From Notolepis coatsorum (lineage: Eukaryota; Chordata; Actinopteri; Aulopiformes; Paralepididae), in contig OZ020594.1 of assembly GCA_963971535.1 (NCBI GenBank), positions 112,248,251-112,312,250 on the forward strand: 64,000 bases of DNA, in the 5' to 3' direction. The translations under genes and the position numbers were made by a program. Shown piece by piece: positions 5,176 through 58,404 of this stretch (position 1 is its first letter; each line of letters opens with the position of its first letter). The notes beneath the pieces were generated by a model. That model made no database searches. It was given only the letters and a program-made list of their open reading frames with translations, and had not been told where the DNA came from.

Positions 5176-8100
5176 GTTCTGTTCCACACTAGCTCACGCT
5201 CAGCGTTCATTGCATAATAGGAGCTGAGCGGGAGCTAGAAGCTCGACAAATGTACCCCGCTAAGGCCCCCCACAACCATCAGACCAGGGAGGGCCGAGCC
5301 CCCCCGACCCACCCTAATGGAGGGCACCCCCCCTATTGGTGGCTTCACGGGAGGGCGACGGACCCGACCGTGCGAAGAGGCACTCAAGCAACTCAACGCA
5401 CAGGGTGAGCAGACCGTGGCTTGACCCCACGACTACACACACGCACAAACCGCATGCCACCCGGGAACGAACGGAGGGAAACAACCTCGTTACTGCCCCC
5501 AGAATCACAGGGTCAAGGGCAAACCCAACCCCGTAGCAGCGGAGCGCGAAGGAAGACCCAGACCCACCAAAAGGACTGGACTCCCTGGAACGGGGGCCCG
5601 GAGAAGTCCATGATGCCAGCATCAAGACCCCACCAGGTGGGCACGTAGTGCCGCGCCCCCCACATCGCCAGCGTATTCGGACAAAAGCCCCTCAGCCGAG
5701 CGGGCCCTGTCCCCCCAATAGTACACCGCCTGGCACACTGACCCTGCAAAAGGCAGTCAGCATGGCCGTAAGCACACAAAAAAGGTTAACCAACGGAAGC
5801 AGGCAGCGCACCGGGGAAAAACCAGGCAACAGGCTATTAACCCTAGCCTGGAGACTGCGGACGAGACAGGCGCCAGAGGGGACAGCTGAACACAGCCGCC
5901 CCGGCGGAAGGAGCGGAAGCTGGCGGCGTTGCATGACCAAGCCTCCATTCAAAAACCCCCACCCAGAGGGGTTGAGGCAGAGAAGGCTGACACGATTGGC
6001 AGACGTCATGAACGTGCAGGGGCACCCTCAACCGGTGAACCCGAGAGTTGACACTGCTCCAACACACCAGGGAATCAACCACCTTGGCGTTACCCAAAGC
6101 GGTCGTTGTTCCTATAACCCCTCAAGAAAAAACTCAAACACACCTGCGGGTATACACCGGCTATACCGCAGTACAAGTGTTTCAGTTTTCAAAAAAGGGT
6201 TAACCCAGGCCTACGGGTCGACGAAACATTACCTCGGACCGGGCCTGGCGATACGGGAAGCACAGGGTCACCAGAGGAGGTCAAAGACCACCCCAACAGG
6301 CCCCTCTTCGCCATGCGTGAGAGAGGAGCGAAAAAGAATGAAGAACCAGCCCCTAAGCACACCGTACTTGGTATTCCCAGGCGGTCTCCCAACCAAGTAC
6401 TAACCAGGACCAACCTGTGTAGCGGCCGAGATCCGACGAGATCGAGCGTGTACAGGTTGGCATGGCCGTAAGCCATTACGACAGTGCTGAGTAAAACGTA
6501 CCCAACCAGGGTCTCCATAGCGCTTAACCCTGTGACACCCGGACCGACCTGGCATTTTTCCCCCTGAAAAAAGCCCAAGTCCCTCAGGGTACCAGAACAG
6601 CAGATCTGCATCCCCGGCGGACAACGGGTTCAACTGATCCGGACCAGCGTGACCAGAACCAGTCCCGTGCCCTAACCACGCGGACATGCCTACTCCAGGA
6701 GAAAGGGCAGATATGCGTGTCGATCTTAACATGAAAAGAAGGCGCCACCCAGACGTTCGGGCGAACCGCGCCTGGTGGCCCACCCCAAGGGCGTGAGACC
6801 CCTCTACATATGTTCAGATCCATTCCGTCATCATCCCCCAGACATGAACGAGAATCCGTCGATAACCAACCCAGGTCGTGGGATGTGGTCGTCGGAAGAG
6901 GAAAAACCCCCATCTCAGTCGCTTTATAAAAACGCCGTTTTAACCACAAGCAACCAAGGCGTGCCAGTCAGTCGCCTGTTTACAGCGAGCTAGCACTATA
7001 CGTGCGTCGGGACACACCCCCATCAATGAACAGGCTATTTAGACCTGTCATTGAATCCCCAAGGCGCCCAGGGGAACGACAAGAGGGGTGTGACACTTCC
7101 TAACTCCAACACTTTTTGAATAGAAAAGAAGGAAGCATCAACAGTATGTATCCCAGACTACACAGCCGGGGGTAAAAAAAATTCACATTTTTACATCCCA
7201 CCACCCTCCCATAGGAAGGAGACGGGGATCCCCAGAGAGACTTCCCACGCGAGCTGTACAGATTGAAAAGAATATATTGCACCTTGAGCCATGTAAAAAA
7301 TTGGTTTTAGGGCTCTCCGGGGAAGAGGCACTGAACCCATACACACTCAATAATCGAATTGAATCGAATACATATACAATAGAATAGGACACCTTCTAGA
7401 GGGTCCACTCACTTTGAAAATCTGAGGAGGAAGGCTCTGTACTCTGATGGAGGCTCCCTCACATGGAAGAAGGAGTCCGAACTCACAGAAGGCCCGAATA
7501 GGCGCTTGGTGAGGAGGAGCCCTGACCACCCCCCTGAAACAGATCCATCACATGGACCTGAACAGCACACGGAAGTCCTACCAACAGAGACGCGCACGGT
7601 GACGTACTCTATGGCGGGGGAATTTCTGCGGTGCACACGCCCAATATACCAGGCCGTGGGACCAGGAAACTCCCTCCCCCCCCCCCCCGTAACGTGCCGA
7701 ACCGCCACGTGACGGGAACCTTGAAGGACAGGGGGTGTACCCCTGACCGACAGAAACAAGGGGGAGAGGAAAGGTTACCAGTTCACCCCTTTACGACACC
7801 CATGATACGATGTAATGACAAAAAGAGAATATGACACAGTCATAGTCAGCTCCATAAAGCGTTTGACAGCTCCACACAGCGCATGAGCTAACCTGCTATC
7901 TGATTTTTACTAAGGAAAAAACACAGAATAGAGAGGGCTCTAAGAGCCCCGGTCCAACATACACATGTGCTTCTGTGGCCAGTCTAACCCAGTTGTAGGT
8001 CACATGACACACACAACCCATCATCACCTACAAAAAATGGCAAAAACACTCTACAGAGGAACGCCGTTTTTCATAATGAGAGAATACATAATTCTCGATT

Positions 8101-35332: not shown

Positions 35333-35497
35333 GGGCAGCACGGTGGTGTAGTGGTTAACACTGTCGCCTCACAGCTAGTAGGTCCTGGGTTCGATTCCCA
35401 CTTAGGGACCAGGTTGCCAGGTACCCAGGTGGGGTATCTCCCGGGCCTTTCTGTGTGGAGTTTGCATGTTCTGCCCGTACTCGCAAGGGTTTCCCCT
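35333..35497 (+). mobile_element. V-SINE (tRNA head plus conserved core), 3'-truncated
   Basis: GGCAGCACGGTGGTGTAGTG with B-box GGTTCGATTCC is the familiar tRNA-derived head of fish V-SINEs. The core contains TTTCTGTGTGGAGTTTGCAT followed by GTTCTGCCCGT. It ends GGGTTTCCCCTCC, short of the usual tail. The equivalent left-arm site (about 4335-4350) lacks it. Confidence 0.88.
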
Positions 35498-39773: not shown

Positions 39774-42700
39774 AACAAGGACACTGTATAGGAACGACTC
39801 TGTAACACGAAACTTTTAATTTAAATTTTTTATCTTTTCTTTTATTCATATATATATATATATCCTATATACATATCTTTTTTAATTTATTTTTAAATCT
39901 AATTATTATTATTATTATTATTATATATAATGATATATATTATTAGATATTATGTTATGTATATTATTATTATATATATATATTTCTTTCTACAATTTTT
40001 TTGGTGTTGATCTGGTTTATTTTTTTAATTTTTAATTTTTGTATGTCTTTTGTTCTAGTCCTATAAGCTCAACTGACCATGTGACGGCTTGGAAAGACAG
40101 CTGACAGGAAGGAAAGACCCCAACGGGGCTGTCATGGACTAGCTATCCATGATGGCAGGCTCCGTCGCTTAATTAAGTGCACAAAAGCCACCCCTCATTG
40201 CTACGAAAAGTCTAAAGAGAAAAACACCCCTAGAGTCTGCGAGAGCGGGGGCGGAAGATGACTCATCGGCTGACCACCCGGTAACTGACCCTGGAATGAA
40301 CATGACGACGAACCAGATAATCGGCACATCAACTGAAGGACGGGAGCACAGAGTATGTAGCTGTGGCTGGTCCAAGGTAACATCCATCAGAGGCCTACGA
40401 ATACATCAAGGCCGGATGAAGTGCTTGAAGAAAGTGAGGCCGGGACCTCGCATTGACCATTATCTTCTGAGAGAAAGGTCAAGTCAGGCGAGTGAAGCTC
40501 AGCGGCAGGATTTACCCCACAGTCCACCGAGCATCAGTACCCCAGTGGCTGAAAGTAATTCAAGCACATCAGAGAACTTGGAACCAAGTCACTTGCAACC
40601 TTCTTTGGAGAAGAACATGCAAGGCCACAGACCTCATGTGAAGTGGCCAAAGTCCAGCAGCAAGAAAGAGTGGGCGACAATCGATGCAGACCTGATAAAA
40701 ATCCTGGACGGAATCAAAGGAACAGTGGAAAAGAAACTGGATAAAATGGGAGATCTGATCTACTTCTATGGAGCAGAAAGGTTCGGAACAAAAGAGACAG
40801 GAAAGAAGGACATGACACCAACAACCCCTCCCAAGTCCAGAAGGCAGCAAGAAATCCAGCGCCTTGTCAAAGAGAGAAGGGACTTGAGGAAGCAATGGAA
40901 GAGAGCCTCATTGGAGGAAAGAGTGGGCATCGACCTCCTGCAAACAGACCTGAAGGGACGCCTGGGAAGACTGCGGAGAGCTGAAAACCTCAGGACTCGA
41001 CGCAAGAGGAAGGAAAGAGCGAGAACATCCTTCAGATTTGTGAAAGGACTCTTCACAAAGGAACAGAGCGGGTCACTTAAGGTGCCAAAGAGGGAGTTTG
41101 AGGACCATCTGAAAACTCACACAGACAGCAAAAGATATGAACAGAGGGAACTACCACCAGACATGCCACCAATTCCTCAACCAGAACACCAGCTGGATGA
41201 CTGTCCTCCAAGGTGGAGGGAGGTTGAGGAAGCAGTGAGGAAGGCAAGGGCAGCTTCAGCTCCAGGACCAAATGGAGTTCCATACCGGCTGTATAAAAAC
41301 TCCCCAAATATCTTATGCTATCTGTGGAGGAAAATGAAGGTGATGTGGACAAAGCAAACCATCCCAAAAGCGTGGCGAAGAGCAGGGGGAGTAGTAATCC
41401 CCAAGGAGAAGGATGCCTCAAACATTGATCAATTCCGGCAGATCAACCTGCTGAATGTTGAAGGGAAGGTCTTCTTTAGCATTGTTTCTAAAAGGATAAC
41501 AACATACCTGAAGCAAAACAACTTGATTGACACATCTGTGCAGAAGGCCGGCATTCCTGGTTTCTCAGGATGCTTGGAACATACAAGCATGATATGGCAC
41601 CAAATCCAATCTGCCAAAAGGGAAGGAAGAGACCTGCACGTCTTATTCCTGGACCTAGCCAACGCTTTTGGATCCGTCCCCCATTCTCTCATCTGGACAG
41701 CCTTCAACTTCTTCCACATCTCAAATACCATCACAAACCTGGTGAGAAATTACTTCCAAGATCTGCAATTCTGTATCAAAACAACAGAATACACAACATC
41801 ATGGCAATCTTTGGAAGTGGGAATAATGGCTGGATGTACCATCTCCCCACTAGCCTTCACCATGGCAATGGAAGTGGTCATTCGAGCTTCCAAGTGGGTT
41901 GTGGGAGGAGAACGTCTGCAATCTGGACAGCGTCTACCTCCTATTTGTGCCTACATGGATGACATGACCACCTTGACCTCAACCATAGCATGCACCAAAC
42001 GTCTGCTGGGAAAGCTTCATGCCAACATTACATGGGCACGGATGAAGTTCAAACCCAGCAAATCCAGGAGCATATCCATTGTCAAGGGAAAACTCGTGGA
42101 CCAGAGGTTCCACATCAAGGATACACCCATTCCTTTGGTGTCAGAACTGCCAGTCAAGAGCCTAGGGCGATGGTACAACGTGAGCCTCAAAGACTCAGAC
42201 CAGAGTGATCAGCTGAGGGAAGAAACCATCAAAGGCCTTGTCAGCATAGACAAGACCTTGCTTCCTGGAAAGCTGAAACTCCGGTGCCTGCAGTTTGGAT
42301 TGCTCCCCCGCCTGATGTGGCCTCTAACGGTCTACGAGATCCCCATGACCAAAGTCGAGAAGCTGGAGAGGACAGTCAGTTCATACATCAAGAAGTGGCT
42401 TGGCCTCCCGCGTTGCCTCAGCAACATCGGCTTGTATGGACACGGGGCCCTGGAATTGCCTGTCTCTAGCCTCATAGAGGAGTTTAAATGCACCAAAGTG
42501 AGGCTGAACATGACCCTGACCGAGTCTCAAGATGAAGTGATCCGAGCGACTGCTCCCAGACTGGCAACTGGGAGGAAATGGATCCCATCTGAGGCCGTAC
42601 AGCAAGCAAAATCTGCTCTCAGGCATAGAGACATTGTAGGACAGGTGCAGCATGGAAGAGGTGGGTTTGGACTTGGGACAAGTCGACCCACATGGCACAA

Positions 42701-44093
42701 GGCAACATCAACCCAGAGGAGAAAGCTGGTGGTGCAGGCCTGTACACTGCGATGATCTCGTCGCAAATTGCCCCTTAATTTGGCCGTTGCGAGTTGGAAA
42801 TATTATTTGGGAGCAACGCTGCGAGTTGTGATTTCAACCCTTCATTCGCATTTCACTCCTAAATTAATCCATACAAATTGGATAAATTTTTTAAAAAACA
42901 TTAGCCTACAACCAAGGCTGTATAGTGCGACACAATGTTGTGGTGCTATGAAAGAATCTGTCGGCAATGAATGAACTTACTGCGATCACCGATAGCCTGA
43001 GTGAAAAAAAAGATTTGCGTGTGGAGTGAATCTGGGTCACGCTATATACTTGGTACTTGTAGTCTATCGTGCGATTAAAGACCATGTCCCTATCTGCGTA
43101 GTCTATACATCCAACACCAAATCCCATAATTCCTAGCAAAACTAAACTGAATGTGGCCTCTCTTCCTTTCAATATGGACTATTGTATCGCCAAAGAAGCA
43201 CCTCATTTCAATACATTTAAGACGCAAATTTTGCTCTGCAAGAACAACGGAGTGGATATCAGTCCATCTTATGACAACCACGTCCGATGTGGAGAGATGA
43301 TAAGATGATGATGATTGACGTGATGATGTTATGATTGATTGACGGGGAGTCGGACACGGACACGTCTAACGTTCAGGTTCAGCCATCGATTTGGTGAGTA
43401 CTAGTAGCCCACTATTAGGACGTGAAATACTGTCTACTTAAATTTATAAAATATCAACCTATCTATCTATCTAATAATGAGACAATATGCAAATAAGATA
43501 ATACTAATAATTGTCACGGTGTCCCCGTATATGAAATGAAAGTGGCTTGCAACTTTACTGCTGGTAAAATCACTGTTTATTTCTCGTTTAGCATAGTATT
43601 ACATTCCACTTCTATAAACAATCAAAGTCCTACCGTAAGAGCCTCATACGGGTCAATTAAACCTTTTTGATTAGTCTTTCCTTCGAGCTAAGTTGGACTG
43701 AACATTTCACTGTCAAAAGCGCAAATGTAAATAAGGTTGCGTCGCAACACGGTTTTCAAAATAAAGGTCACATATACAAATACCTCTCAATTCTTACTAA
43801 AAAAAGTCCCGGATATACAGAAACATTAATTGGCATAGATCTCTATAAACGGCCCAACACATTGATCACTTTAGGCACACACTGAAACCAGTAACATCAC
43901 AAATATGAAGCAGGTAATTACCCATACAAATAATAAACCTTTCATGGGGTTATTTACAATAATAATTCATTTGATTTCTAAAGCACTTTTCATTGTGAAA
44001 CAAATGTATGCAGAGTTTCTTGTCCTCCTGATTAATGCAATGGTGTGTGTGTTGTGGTGATCTCATTCAAGGAGCACTACACAAGCGCGCACA

Positions 44094-44305
44094 TATAACG
44101 GGTACGTCCTAGTACCCGTCACGAAACTTCGACCATGCCTCGAGTGGGAGTCGAACCCCGAGCGTCTGCTCCGGGGCCAGTATAGCAAACCGCTGCGCCA
44201 AGAAGGGAATTCCCCTCTAAGCGCTCGGTTTATCTGCCTCTGGGGAGTGAGTTTTACACACTTCTATGTGCCGTAGTCACACTATCGCGGCACATATCCG
44301 TTACA
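44094..44305 (-). repeat. TRIM 3' LTR (212 bp)
   Basis: On the minus strand this is the downstream LTR, next to the polypurine tract. The tRNA-like region lies at about 44145-44210. Identity with the other LTR implies a recent insertion. Confidence 0.75.
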
Positions 44306-44357
44306 TTCACCCCCCCTAAACTCACACCACCCAAGGCATCCGGGTCAACGGCACCAG

Positions 44358-44569
44358 TATAACGGGTACGTCCTAGTACCCGTCACGAAACTTCGACCAT
44401 GCCTCGAGTGGGAGTCGAACCCCGAGCGTCTGCTCCGGGGCCAGTATAGCAAACCGCTGCGCCAAGAAGGGAATTCCCCTCTAAGCGCTCGGTTTATCTG
44501 CCTCTGGGGAGTGAGTTTTACACACTTCTATGTGCCGTAGTCACACTATCGCGGCACATATCCGTTACA
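44358..44569 (-). repeat. TRIM 5' LTR (212 bp)
   Basis: On the minus strand this is the upstream LTR; the putative primer-binding site begins one base beyond it. A (CA)n run abuts its outer edge at 44570-44585. Confidence 0.75.
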
Positions 44570-46815
44570 CACACACACACACACAGTTTGTTGTTTTTGT
44601 TCTATTAGTGATTTACACACTTTCTCGGTTGGTTCATTATAAAAGATACAAACCTGAAAACAAACGCACTTAAATGTTAAATAAAAGGACCACAGTAATG
44701 AGGCAGGAACATATTTTTTTAATAATGGTAAAATTGTTATTTAAAAATGTGCCCCTAAAAAATATTTTTTGCCCCTAAATTTCTCATTTAGGGGCAAGTG
44801 TGCCCCTAGTGAAAAAGCTTAGCGTACAGCCCTGTGGTGGCTCAGATTCAGCAACAAGAGGAGGCAGACAGATGCGCAAAGGCAGTCTCACAGTCCAAAC
44901 AGGGCCAATGGACTAGCTGGGAAAACCTGGAGCATCGTAAGCTCACATGGAAGGATCTTTGGGAGATGGAAGGAAGCCAAATCAGCTTCATCATCAGAGC
45001 CACCTATGATGTTCTCCCCACGCCCAAGAACCTAAACCAGTGGTTTGGAGAAGATCCTTCTTGTGTGCTTTGCCAAACCCCCGCAACACTGAGGCACATC
45101 CTCACCGGCTGCAAAACCAGTTTGTCCCAAGGGCGCTACACCTGGAGACACAACCAGGTCCTAAGACAACTGGCAATCACCCTGGAAGGAAGGAGAACTA
45201 CCAACAATGCCCTCCCTCCCCCAATGCCTAGACACTCAAACACCACTTCTTTTGTAAGAGCAGGACAGCTCCCAGCAAAGCCATCTGCAAGAGTGGAGGC
45301 AACCCTCCTGGACACTGCCCGGGATTGGAGAATGCAGGTTGACTTGGACCAGAAACTAATCTTTCCGCCTGAGATAATTACAACTAACCTCAGGCCGGAC
45401 CTGGTCTTGTGGTCAACCTCCCAGAAGTCTGTATTCATTGTGGAACTAACTGTACCATGGGAGGCTGCAGTTGGTGAAGCATATGAACGCAAACGACTGA
45501 AGTACTCCGACATAGCAGCCGAGGCAGAACAATGCGGCTGGCGTGCCCAGGTGCTTCCGGTGGAGGTTGGTTCTAGAGGATTTGTTGCCATGTCCACAAC
45601 CAAGCTTCTTAAGGGGATGGGAGTGCGAGGACAGGCATTCCGACAAGCTGTCAAAACACTGTCAGAGGCTGCCGAACGAAGCAGCAGATGGCTATGGATT
45701 AAGAGAAAGGACCCCAATTGGGCTGCAAAATGACCATCGAGGGGTAAAAGCAGAGGGGGGCACACCTGGGACGCCAGGTGTTGCCGTTGAGCCCTTCGGA
45801 GGTGTCGTGGGCCTGTCAACGAAACACCAATGAAGGAGGGTGCCCACCTGAAGACCCCAGTGAAGCTTTTACCACTACCCCATTCAAAAAAGTGCTGATT
45901 ATCTAAGGGATTGTAATATCTAGTCCTATAAGCTCAACTGTTTGTTTTGTCGATAAGTGTATGTATGTCACGTTTGTATTGTCTACTGTAATGTCTAAAA
46001 AAAACTAATAAAAATATAAAAAATAAAAAAATAAAATGACAAATGGCATTGACACTTTAATTCACGGTTGGTTAAAAACACGTTTGTTTTATAATGCTCA
46101 CTCAGCAGACTGCAGTGTTGTTGATAAATTACGTCATATGGTATCGGAGCGCAGAATTAGAGGGTACTCGCCGATACCGATACCAGCATTTTAGGCAGTA
46201 TCGGCGGCATTTCCGATACTGGTATCGGTATCGGAACAACTCTAATCTCAAACCTACCGAAGTCGGCCCATGTAACCCCACTTCTCAGGGACTGGCTCCT
46301 CATTGCTGCACGAATCCGCTTCAAGGCCCTCGACCTGGCATACCGTGGGGCAAAGGGAACAGCTCCCGCCTACCTCCGGTCAATGGTCTCTAACTACATA
46401 CCCTCAAGACCCCTACGCTCTGCATCTTCTGGCCGCCTCAGACCTACTCCTATCCGAGCTCCGGGAGGGTCATCAAAGAGAAGTCGCCTATTCTCAGTCC
46501 TTGCCCCACAATGGTGGAATTAACTACCCACCCCAGTTAGGACAGCCGAAACCTGTCCAATCTTTCACCGTCGACTAAAGACGCACTTCTTCAACCATTA
46601 TCTGAAAAAAATTATAATAATAATAATAAATCAATAAAATCTAACCCTAATTAACCTTACCGTCATGCACTTGTCCTAATAAACTAACATACACTGTAGC
46701 ACTCAACACTTTGATGAACATTGTTACTCAGCTGATAGAGTTGTACCCTTCCTGATGACTTGTCGTACAGAACTTGTAAGTCGCTTTGGATAAAAGTGTC
46801 AGCTAAATTACTAAA

Positions 46816-51729: not shown

Positions 51730-52212
51730 GACGTAAAGGAGGGGACAGGGACTGCTTACTCTTACAGAGAGAGAGACGTAAAGGAGGAGACGGGGACGTA
51801 AAGGAGGGGACAGGGACTGCTTACTCTCACAGAGAGACGTAAAGGAGGGGACAGGGACTGCTTACTCTTACAGAGAGAGACGTAAAGGAGGGGACAGGGA
51901 CTGCTTACTCTTACAGAGAGAGAGACGTAAAGGAGGGGACCGGGACTGCTTACTCTTACAGAGAGAGACGTAAAGGAGGGGACAGGGACTGCTTACTCTC
52001 ACAGAGAGACGTAAAGGAGGGGACAGGGACTGCTTACTCTTACAGAGAGAGACGTAAAGGAGGGGACAGGGACTGCTTACTCTTACAGAGAGAGACGTAA
52101 AGGAGGGGACAGGGACTGCTTACTCTTACAGAGAGAGAGACGTAAAGGAGGGGACAGGGACTGCTTACTCTTACAGAGAGAGAGACGTAAAGGAGGGGAC
52201 AGGGACTGCTTA
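51730..52212. repeat. ~43-bp minisatellite, first block
   Basis: The unit GACGTAAAGGAGGGGACAGG plus GACTGCTTACTCTTACAGAGA varies from 41 to 45 bp through the number of GA pairs, with one short 20-bp unit near 51775. There are about eleven units. The array is interrupted at 52213 and resumes as fragments at 52738, 53769 and 57261. Confidence 0.93.
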
Positions 52213-57260: not shown

Positions 57261-57862
57261 ACAGAGAGACGTAAAGGAGGGGACAGGGACTGCTTACTCT
57301 TACAGAGAGAGACGTAAAGGAGGGGACAGGGACTGCTTACTCTTACAGAGAGAGAGACGTAAAGGAGGGGACAGGGACTGCTTACTCTTACAGAGAGACG
57401 TAAAGGAGGGGACAGGGACTGCTTACTCTTACAGAGAGACGTAAAGGAGGGGACAGGGACTGCTTACTCTTACAGAGAGAGACGTAGAGGAGGGGACAGG
57501 GACTGCTTACTCTTACAGAGAGAGACGTAAAGGAGGGGACAGGGACTGCTTACTCTTACAGAGAGAGACGTAAAGGAGGGGACAGGGACTGCTTACTCTT
57601 ACAGAGAGAGACGTAAAGGAGGGGACAGGGACTGCTTACTCTTACAGAGAGAGACGTAAAGGAGGGGACAGGGACTGCTTACTCTTACAGAGAGAGACGT
57701 AAAGGAGGGGACAGGGACTGCTTACTCTTACAGAGAGACGTAGAGGAGGGGACAGGGACTGCTTACTCTTACAGAGAGACGTAAAGGAGGGGACAGGGAC
57801 TGTTTACTCTTACAGAGAGACGTAGAGGAGGGGACAGGGACTGCTTACTCTTACAGAGAGAC
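57261..57862. repeat. ~43-bp minisatellite, final block
   Basis: About fourteen units of the same repeat as at 51730-52212, with occasional GACGTAGAGG variants. Together with the fragments between the insertions this was one array. Confidence 0.93.
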
Positions 57863-58404
57863 ACGGTCTCATCAGAAAACGTAAATAAAGTACTTAATCG
57901 AAAAAAGGTACACAATGTACTTTATATATATAAGTAATTTACATTACATTTTGTATCGGCAAAAGTAAAAAAATAAATGTAAAAGCATGATTGAGAGTCA
58001 AACGAACAATGCTTGTCGTTGGGGGGCGAGTGCACTAGATCAAGCCACCCACCCCGATACAAACAGCAATAATATGATGATAGAAAGTTAAGGTAACGGT
58101 TGTGGTTAGCAGTGGTGCGTTGGTCATGGGACGGGGTTGCACGCAGAGCAACCGGCTCTGTGCACGGATGTGCACGCGCGTGCACACAGGAATGCGCCAA
58201 CTCGACTGATGCGCCAACTCGCCAAGTACCCACATGGCTACTTTGCATAACAATAGCTCAGGTCGTCAGGTGTGTTCAAATACGTCCTCCGATACATTCA
58301 CACAAAACTTGTGAATGAAATGTGTTACATTCCATTCCTAGAGGCAATTAGGCATTGTCTTTAGTCTGTGCGCACGCGAGGGAACATTTATGCACATTTA
58401 TGGA
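57863..58404. other. No gene recognised
   Basis: AT-rich at 57863-58000, then mixed sequence with GTGCACGCGCGTGCAC-type motifs near 58170. No motif-bearing frame and no clear repeat ends. Confidence 0.5.

Follow-up and report, generated by a model that had tools for sequence, protein, structure and literature searches.

A probable Helenus-type TRIM with a tRNA-like promoter in its LTRs in the fish Notolepis coatsorum

The window analysed here, a 64,000-nucleotide stretch of the Notolepis coatsorum genome, carries on its minus strand a 476-bp repeat, very probably a Helenus-type TRIM that inserted recently. Such an element is a non-autonomous LTR retrotransposon, here with a type-2 (tRNA-like) Pol III promoter in its LTRs. 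A miniature LTR retrotransposon with such a promoter had been proposed at this place by an earlier sequence-only reading, and the proposal is now supported by copies elsewhere in the genome, solo LTRs and target-site duplications. The novelty which that reading implied for a fish TRIM with a tRNA-type LTR promoter does not hold. Such elements are already known as Helenus (TRIMp3), the tRNA-type TRIMs of fungi, of animals including fish, and of one plant, to which LTR-11_DR of zebrafish and its relatives in Ostariophysi belong (Kojima 2024, PMC10886601; this and the other papers are cited from parts of their text).

Structure of the window copy

The element occupies positions 44094-44569 and consists of a 5' LTR (44358-44569), an internal part of 52 bp (44306-44357) and a 3' LTR (44094-44305). 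The direct repeats had been described as 212 bp each around 52 bp; this is exact to the base, with 0 differences between the two LTRs. The LTR termini, TGTAACGG and CCGTTATA, form an imperfect inverted pair, and termini of this TG...TA type are unusual. The internal part begins with C-TGGTGCCGTTGACCCGGAT, the TGG-initial sequence resembling a primer site that had been noted before, in which the putative primer-binding site TGGTGCCGTTGACCCGGA spans 44339-44356. It ends in the polypurine tract AGGGGGGGTGAA (44306-44317), which directly abuts the 3' LTR, again as claimed. Coding sequence is absent from the internal part and the whole element is shorter than 1000 bp; for Helenus, a TRIM is taken to be a noncoding LTR element of less than 1000 bp (PMC10886601). 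The flanks carry TGTG on both the 5' side (44570-44573) and the 3' side (44090-44093), a 4-bp target-site duplication absent from the earlier reading. On its own this duplication is weak because a (TG)n run adjoins it, and it is the family-wide evidence presented below that carries the duplication claim.

Other features were seen in the window. A reverse-transcriptase reading frame (Pfam RVT_1) lies at 40173-42755 (+), and 44813-45733 (+), which has no Pfam match, is apparently the C-terminal part of a LINE with that frame. The two LINE-like frames are parted by about 2 kb of other DNA with the Helenus copy inside it, and may belong to one and the same LINE. The sole window match at the Rfam gathering score is to 5S rRNA (6356-6473, minus strand, 67.2 bits), and may represent 5S rDNA, a pseudogene or a SINE derived from 5S. 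Tandem repeats with a common 43-bp unit occur at 51795-52212 and 57263-57865; a tandem repeat at 1627-2501 of locus L115 also has 43-bp spacing, with a unit that differs from that of the window arrays.

Genomic copies and subfamilies

A DNA search of the 3.42-Gb genome gave at least 51 matches among the 40 scored of 1546 candidates. The junction of polypurine tract and LTR occurs 360 times genome-wide with up to 2 mismatches (0 for the reversed-pattern control); for the LTR start, with up to 1 mismatch, the count is 783 (1 for the control). The genome thus carries hundreds of copies, and both solo LTRs and tandem arrays are among those read. Exact 4-bp duplications were present at the LTR ends in 28 of the 30 rows L001-L030, the misses being L026 and L029; after rows had been merged by shared locus or flanks, the duplication was present in 23 of 25 insertions. 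As a safeguard against best-copy bias, a second sample was drawn from the exact LTR-start matches listed on contigs C1 and C4 (38 loci). Here a script detected exact 4-bp duplications in 30 loci, among which L083 and L087 share flanks, the duplication of L038 spans two solo LTRs, and seven are solo LTRs (L031, L033, L036, L037, L040, L042, L043). The script missed L034, L035, L056, L082, L084, L085, L090 and L098; at L035 a TCAG duplication is visible by eye. A search for LTR-52 bp-LTR copies, solo LTRs and target-site duplications, which the sequence-only reading had recommended, therefore yielded many copies, solo LTRs and 4-bp duplications. The contrary outcome that it named, a 212-bp unit occurring only as a single SINE, is contradicted by the LTR pairs, the solo LTRs and the duplications.

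Five copies at separate places are identical over 475 bp, a mark of recent spread by which the family looks recently active. Among 75 LTR-internal-LTR chains, which include neighbouring array units and composite copies, 17 LTR pairs are without difference. From loci L001-L100 we collected 88 distinct LTRs with a script requiring defined ends; 63 end in TACA and 24 in TATA, the window copy being of the TG...TA type. The subfamilies have the U3 head and the internal part in common and differ in the U5 end and the middle of U3. Four loci (L053, L059, L067, L072) contain extra modules of head, promoter and purine tract that lack U5 and the primer site. At L041, two LTRs of about 388 bp have two promoter units apiece (the boxes of the first unit were read by eye) and are flanked by TATA, so that an LTR with two promoters has transposed as such. 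A second, more diverged family is represented by L116 and L117, which have their 5' flank in common and a 5' LTR of 231 bp; L116 has a TGGG duplication. This family also carries a sequence close to the conserved block, and a primer word in which TAG replaces TGG.

Some loci had further rearrangements. At L006 and L024 (C21:144-145 Mb), a 555-bp segment comprising a cut Helenus copy plus flanks is repeated head to tail, and L015 shares these flanks; this repeat is a segmental amplification and not transposition. Within L044, between 951 and 1646, an insertion of about 700 bp lies inside the internal part and has, by eye, inverted ends and a tRNA-like piece. Two scans of viral contigs found nothing.

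Insertion sites

Exact 4-bp duplications define 70 distinct target sites in a script search over L001-L100 and L103-L105. The second copy of the duplication was sought up to 1600 bases downstream; 39 sites have the length of a full element, 14 that of a solo LTR, and 17 are longer, a few of which may be chance matches. The site at L090 is probably one such match, since no duplication was found at its LTR ends in the C1/C4 sample. Over all 70 sites, the duplication is preceded by T (55 sites) and then G (35); it begins with Y in 65 and ends with R in 65, and is followed by C (40) and then A (52). The target reads TG-YWWR-CA, a palindrome with the duplication at its centre, and an integrase that cuts both strands symmetrically is expected to give such a pattern. 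The palindromic target and the exact duplications at 70 sites together indicate that these copies were inserted by an integrase and are not SINEs.

Targeting of tRNA genes was considered and rejected: with 1-1.5 kb scanned per side, ARAGORN predicted tRNAs at only one of 46 loci. At this locus, L026, a Helenus copy lies next to a predicted tRNA gene cluster (Cys, Arg and three Met).

LTR hairpins

The window LTR folds far more stably than shuffled versions of itself (z -5.4). Two predicted hairpins were followed through an alignment (A1) of 28 of the 30 non-redundant LTRs, which excludes the rearranged L029 and the truncated L086. The U3 hairpin, TATGTGCCG...CGGCACATA, pairs columns 10-18 with 54-62 and lies at 44529-44560 in the 5' LTR and 44265-44296 in the 3' LTR. 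The U5-end hairpin, ACGGGTAC...GTACCCGT, pairs columns 230-237 with 244-251; it lies at 44362-44383 in the 5' LTR, where it adjoins the primer site, and at 44098-44119 in the 3' LTR. Across the 28 LTRs, 94.5% of the cells of the two hairpins are paired, and 27 double changes were observed, where shuffles gave 8.8 and slid controls no more than 2. Most of these are carried by pairs 15-57 (AU 17, GC 11) and 236-245 (AU 14, UA 7, GC 5). Counted by pair, double changes do not exceed the shuffle level (4 pairs versus 3.0, with 4 reached in 109 of 500 shuffles), and pair 232-249 is unpaired in 20 of the 28 LTRs. Given these two results and the kinship of the sequences, the structure is supported, not proven; the double changes support covariation of both putative hairpins between subfamilies.

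Tandem arrays

Five simple tandem arrays, spotted by spacing among the matches listed, were read (L005, L020, L103, L104 and L105). Each has one 4-bp duplication at its outer ends, and in L104 the first LTR base is altered. For the arrays of Cassandra, a plant TRIM, two origins have been proposed: LTR exchange after insertion, and template switching in reverse transcription (PMC7215508). Three of the five arrays have outer LTRs that are alike and an inner LTR that differs, which suggests that units of different genotype may have been joined prior to integration. In L103, four sites set LTR2 apart from LTR1 and LTR3, which have the same bases there; LTR3 has two private changes besides. Primer site and purine tract also vary between the two internal parts of this array. 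Along the five LTRs of L005, site 90 alternates A-G-A-G-A and the primer-site variant alternates 51-52-51-52. In L105 the difference is a single site, position 90, which is G in LTR1 and LTR3 and A in LTR2. Among window-type LTRs preceding a primer site in L001-L100, G90 accompanies the 52-base form in 21 of 22 cases and A90 the 51-base form in 19 of 23, in a table that includes array units and counts overlapping loci more than once.

We tentatively propose, with somewhat less than even confidence, that Helenus arrays arise when two RNAs that differ in genotype are packaged together and reverse-transcribed, and that the LTR hairpins are conserved parts of these RNAs. Minus-strand DNA would jump from the 5' end of RNA 1 to the 3' LTR of RNA 2, synthesis would continue through the intact 5' LTR of RNA 2, and the DNA would then jump back. 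The product would be LTR-internal-LTR-internal-LTR with outer LTRs alike, a different inner LTR and a single 4-bp duplication. A long R region would be common to both RNAs, as the unit lacks a Pol III terminator; the hairpins would serve in packaging, priming or RNA-RNA pairing.

It is possible, though we regard it as rather doubtful, that the arrays formed only after insertion by unequal LTR exchange, with gene conversion or chance mutation producing the differences between units. This is one of the two mechanisms proposed for Cassandra (PMC7215508), and it fits L104, where a change common to the inner and 3' LTRs is absent from the 5' LTR, as after duplication of an inserted element; moreover, L020 is uninformative on array origin and L105 depends on one site. 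It is harder to reconcile with L103, whose outer LTRs agree against the inner one at four sites while the internal parts differ as well, and with the double alternation along L005. Mixed-genotype arrays with alike outer LTRs offer a direct test, by sequence only, between the two published array origins.

The LTR promoter

Each LTR contains the A box TGGCGCAGCGG (44464-44454 and 44200-44190) and the B box GGTTCGACTCC (44421-44411 and 44157-44147) that had been reported, identified here by pattern match. Their spacing is 43 bp from start to start, as in tRNA genes; in the A box of the window copy, the base following TRGC is G rather than Y. An A and B pair was found at three places in the window, the two LTRs and 35344 (+), and at none in 200 dinucleotide-matched simulated windows. 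The pair at 35344, the sole other one in the window, is a separate one in SINE-like sequence.

With a looser pattern, both boxes are retained in 77 of the 88 distinct LTRs, 11 being without the full pair; the classes printed account for 71 of the 77, and the spacing is 43 bp in all of them. By pattern, both boxes are present in 23 of the 28 aligned LTRs. Few parts of the LTR are as conserved as the B box, whose level is matched by 8% of 11-base stretches; for the less conserved A box the figure is 31%. Conservation is not confined to the boxes; the LTR head and the block AAAACTCACT equal them in the 28 aligned LTRs. LTR positions 51-64 (44519-44506 and 44255-44242), 42-55 bp upstream of the A box, read AAAACTCACTCCCC, of which the first ten bases are conserved at the level of the B box and which has a near match in the diverged family of L116. 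Sequences fitting the A and B box patterns are also present, by eye, in L116. No tRNA was found in the LTR promoter by Rfam (up to E=1) or by ARAGORN, and the basis for a possible descent of the promoter from a tRNA or SINE2 consists of the two boxes and their spacing. Weak Rfam matches of variants to mir-12 and Ms_IGR-5, both below the gathering score, were rejected, and two bacterial matches to an internal 19-mer were dismissed as chance.

TTTT is absent from the sense strand of the 264-bp unit and is found in only 2 of the 88 LTRs. As proof of Pol III use this absence was rejected: 57% of dinucleotide shuffles are likewise without TTTT. The absence is what read-through by Pol III would allow, but it cannot count as evidence for it. 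Signals of the Pol II type are rare, with AATAAA in 1 and TATAWA in 3 of the 88 LTRs. We infer a cycle in which Pol III would start about 10-20 bases upstream of the A box of the 5' LTR and read across the internal part and the 3' LTR. Since the unit has no TTTT, transcription would terminate at a T-run in the flanking DNA. Gypsy (Ty3-type) proteins acting in trans would reverse-transcribe the RNA, with a tRNA primer at TGGTGCCGT...; the second strand would be primed at GGGGGGGTGAA, and the DNA would then be inserted by the Gypsy proteins.

The boxes could be relics of an old SINE insertion in the LTR of an element that today uses Pol II, as ordinary TRIMs do, which we consider unlikely. Conservation beyond the boxes, the want of a TTTT terminator defining a Pol III end and the LTRs without a full pair would agree with such a history; against it stand the retention of both boxes at tRNA-like spacing in most distinct LTRs, the presence of fitting A and B sequences in the distant family, and the scarcity of poly(A) and TATA signals in LTRs whose candidate Gypsy-like helper does carry AATAAA in its own. 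For the Helenus-type element with a tRNA-like promoter, the likeness to tRNA-derived SINEs (SINE2) lies in the A and B boxes at tRNA spacing, whereas the 4-bp duplications, LTR pairs, primer site and purine tract set the window element apart; a single unit, an A-rich or LINE-like tail and longer duplications, the hallmarks of SINE2, were not seen at the insertion sites examined. That the repeat is a tandem SINE or satellite is very improbable and was rejected, since its head-to-tail arrays of the 264-bp unit and the 1.8-copy tandem repeat called by Tandem Repeats Finder in the window are outweighed by duplications at LTR ends, a palindromic integrase-type target, solo LTRs, and a primer site and purine tract at fixed places.

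Primer site and candidate helper

We take the primer site of the window copy to be of the tRNA-His type, and TGGTGCCGTGAC of the commonest variant presumably fits tRNA-His as well. Elsewhere, base nine is followed by none, one or two additional bases: in the fetched loci, with overlapping loci counted repeatedly, TGGTGCCGT is followed before GACCCGG by no base in 46 cases, T in 35, A in 6 and TT in 5, with one other case. Variation limited to this position would agree with the copying of a short stretch of the tRNA. The word TGCCGTGACTCGGAT, presumably of the tRNA-His type, occurs at 7 places in the genome against 5 for the reversed-word control, a count at chance level, and ARAGORN found no tRNA gene among the 7. 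All 7 matches are preceded by TGG or TAG, and in 6 of them an LTR-like end comes before that; L106 follows a T-run.

One locus, L113, holds a Gypsy-like copy in which the primer site TGGTGCCGTGACTCGGATT follows an LTR end, CCGTTACA. Three features link it to the window family: the LTR ends in CCGTTA(C/T)A, the offset is likewise of one base, and the primer word TGGTGCCGTGAC occurs in both. It differs from it in a longer LTR, of about 502 bp if the possible start TGTAAC, placed by eye 502 bp upstream of the LTR end, is correct; in a poly(A) signal, AATAAA, between these points; and in its gag-like and pol-like frames. In the gag-like frame a zinc knuckle is the sole Pfam match. The pol-like frame has no Pfam match, and its end weakly matches the solved reverse transcriptase 4ol8 (E 0.006), which we take to be that of Ty3. 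A 3' LTR was not found within the stretch fetched for L113. This Gypsy-like element is a candidate helper, and the palindromic target together with a Gypsy-like copy bearing the same primer word makes the helper question testable.

Relation to known elements

The window family shares with Helenus a short LTR-primer site-purine tract-LTR layout without genes, the tRNA-like LTR promoter, 4-bp duplications, solo LTRs, arrays and high copy number, all of them described for Helenus, the 4-bp duplications for its animal members (PMC10886601). It is very probably a Helenus member, placed there by these features. According to the same source, vertebrate Helenus primer tRNAs are His, Leu or Lys, a Gypsy helper is probable, and Pol III transcription is expected, unproven (PMC10886601). 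Cassandra likewise combines a Pol III type of promoter in the LTR with tandem LTR-internal arrays and a structured RNA; its promoter is of the 5S type, whereas that described here is of the tRNA type, and its LTRs are said to carry Pol III terminators (PMC7215508), whereas the unit here is without TTTT. No differences were seen between Cassandra array units (PMC7215508), whereas three of our five arrays have units that differ, at sites common to other copies.

Covarying hairpins, a palindromic target and mixed-genotype arrays do not appear in the cited parts of PMC10886601, PMC7215508 and PMC12859917, nor LTRs with two promoter units in those of PMC10886601. Relative to these portions of the Helenus text, the putatively covarying hairpins, the apparent mixed arrays, the palindromic target, the two-promoter LTR and the Gypsy-like candidate helper are new.

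Because the family looks recently active, its transcripts could be sought in host RNA data. The Helenus copies in this genome add clues on how such elements are copied, joined and inserted, and the features of most interest are the mixed arrays, the LTR hairpins and the palindromic target.
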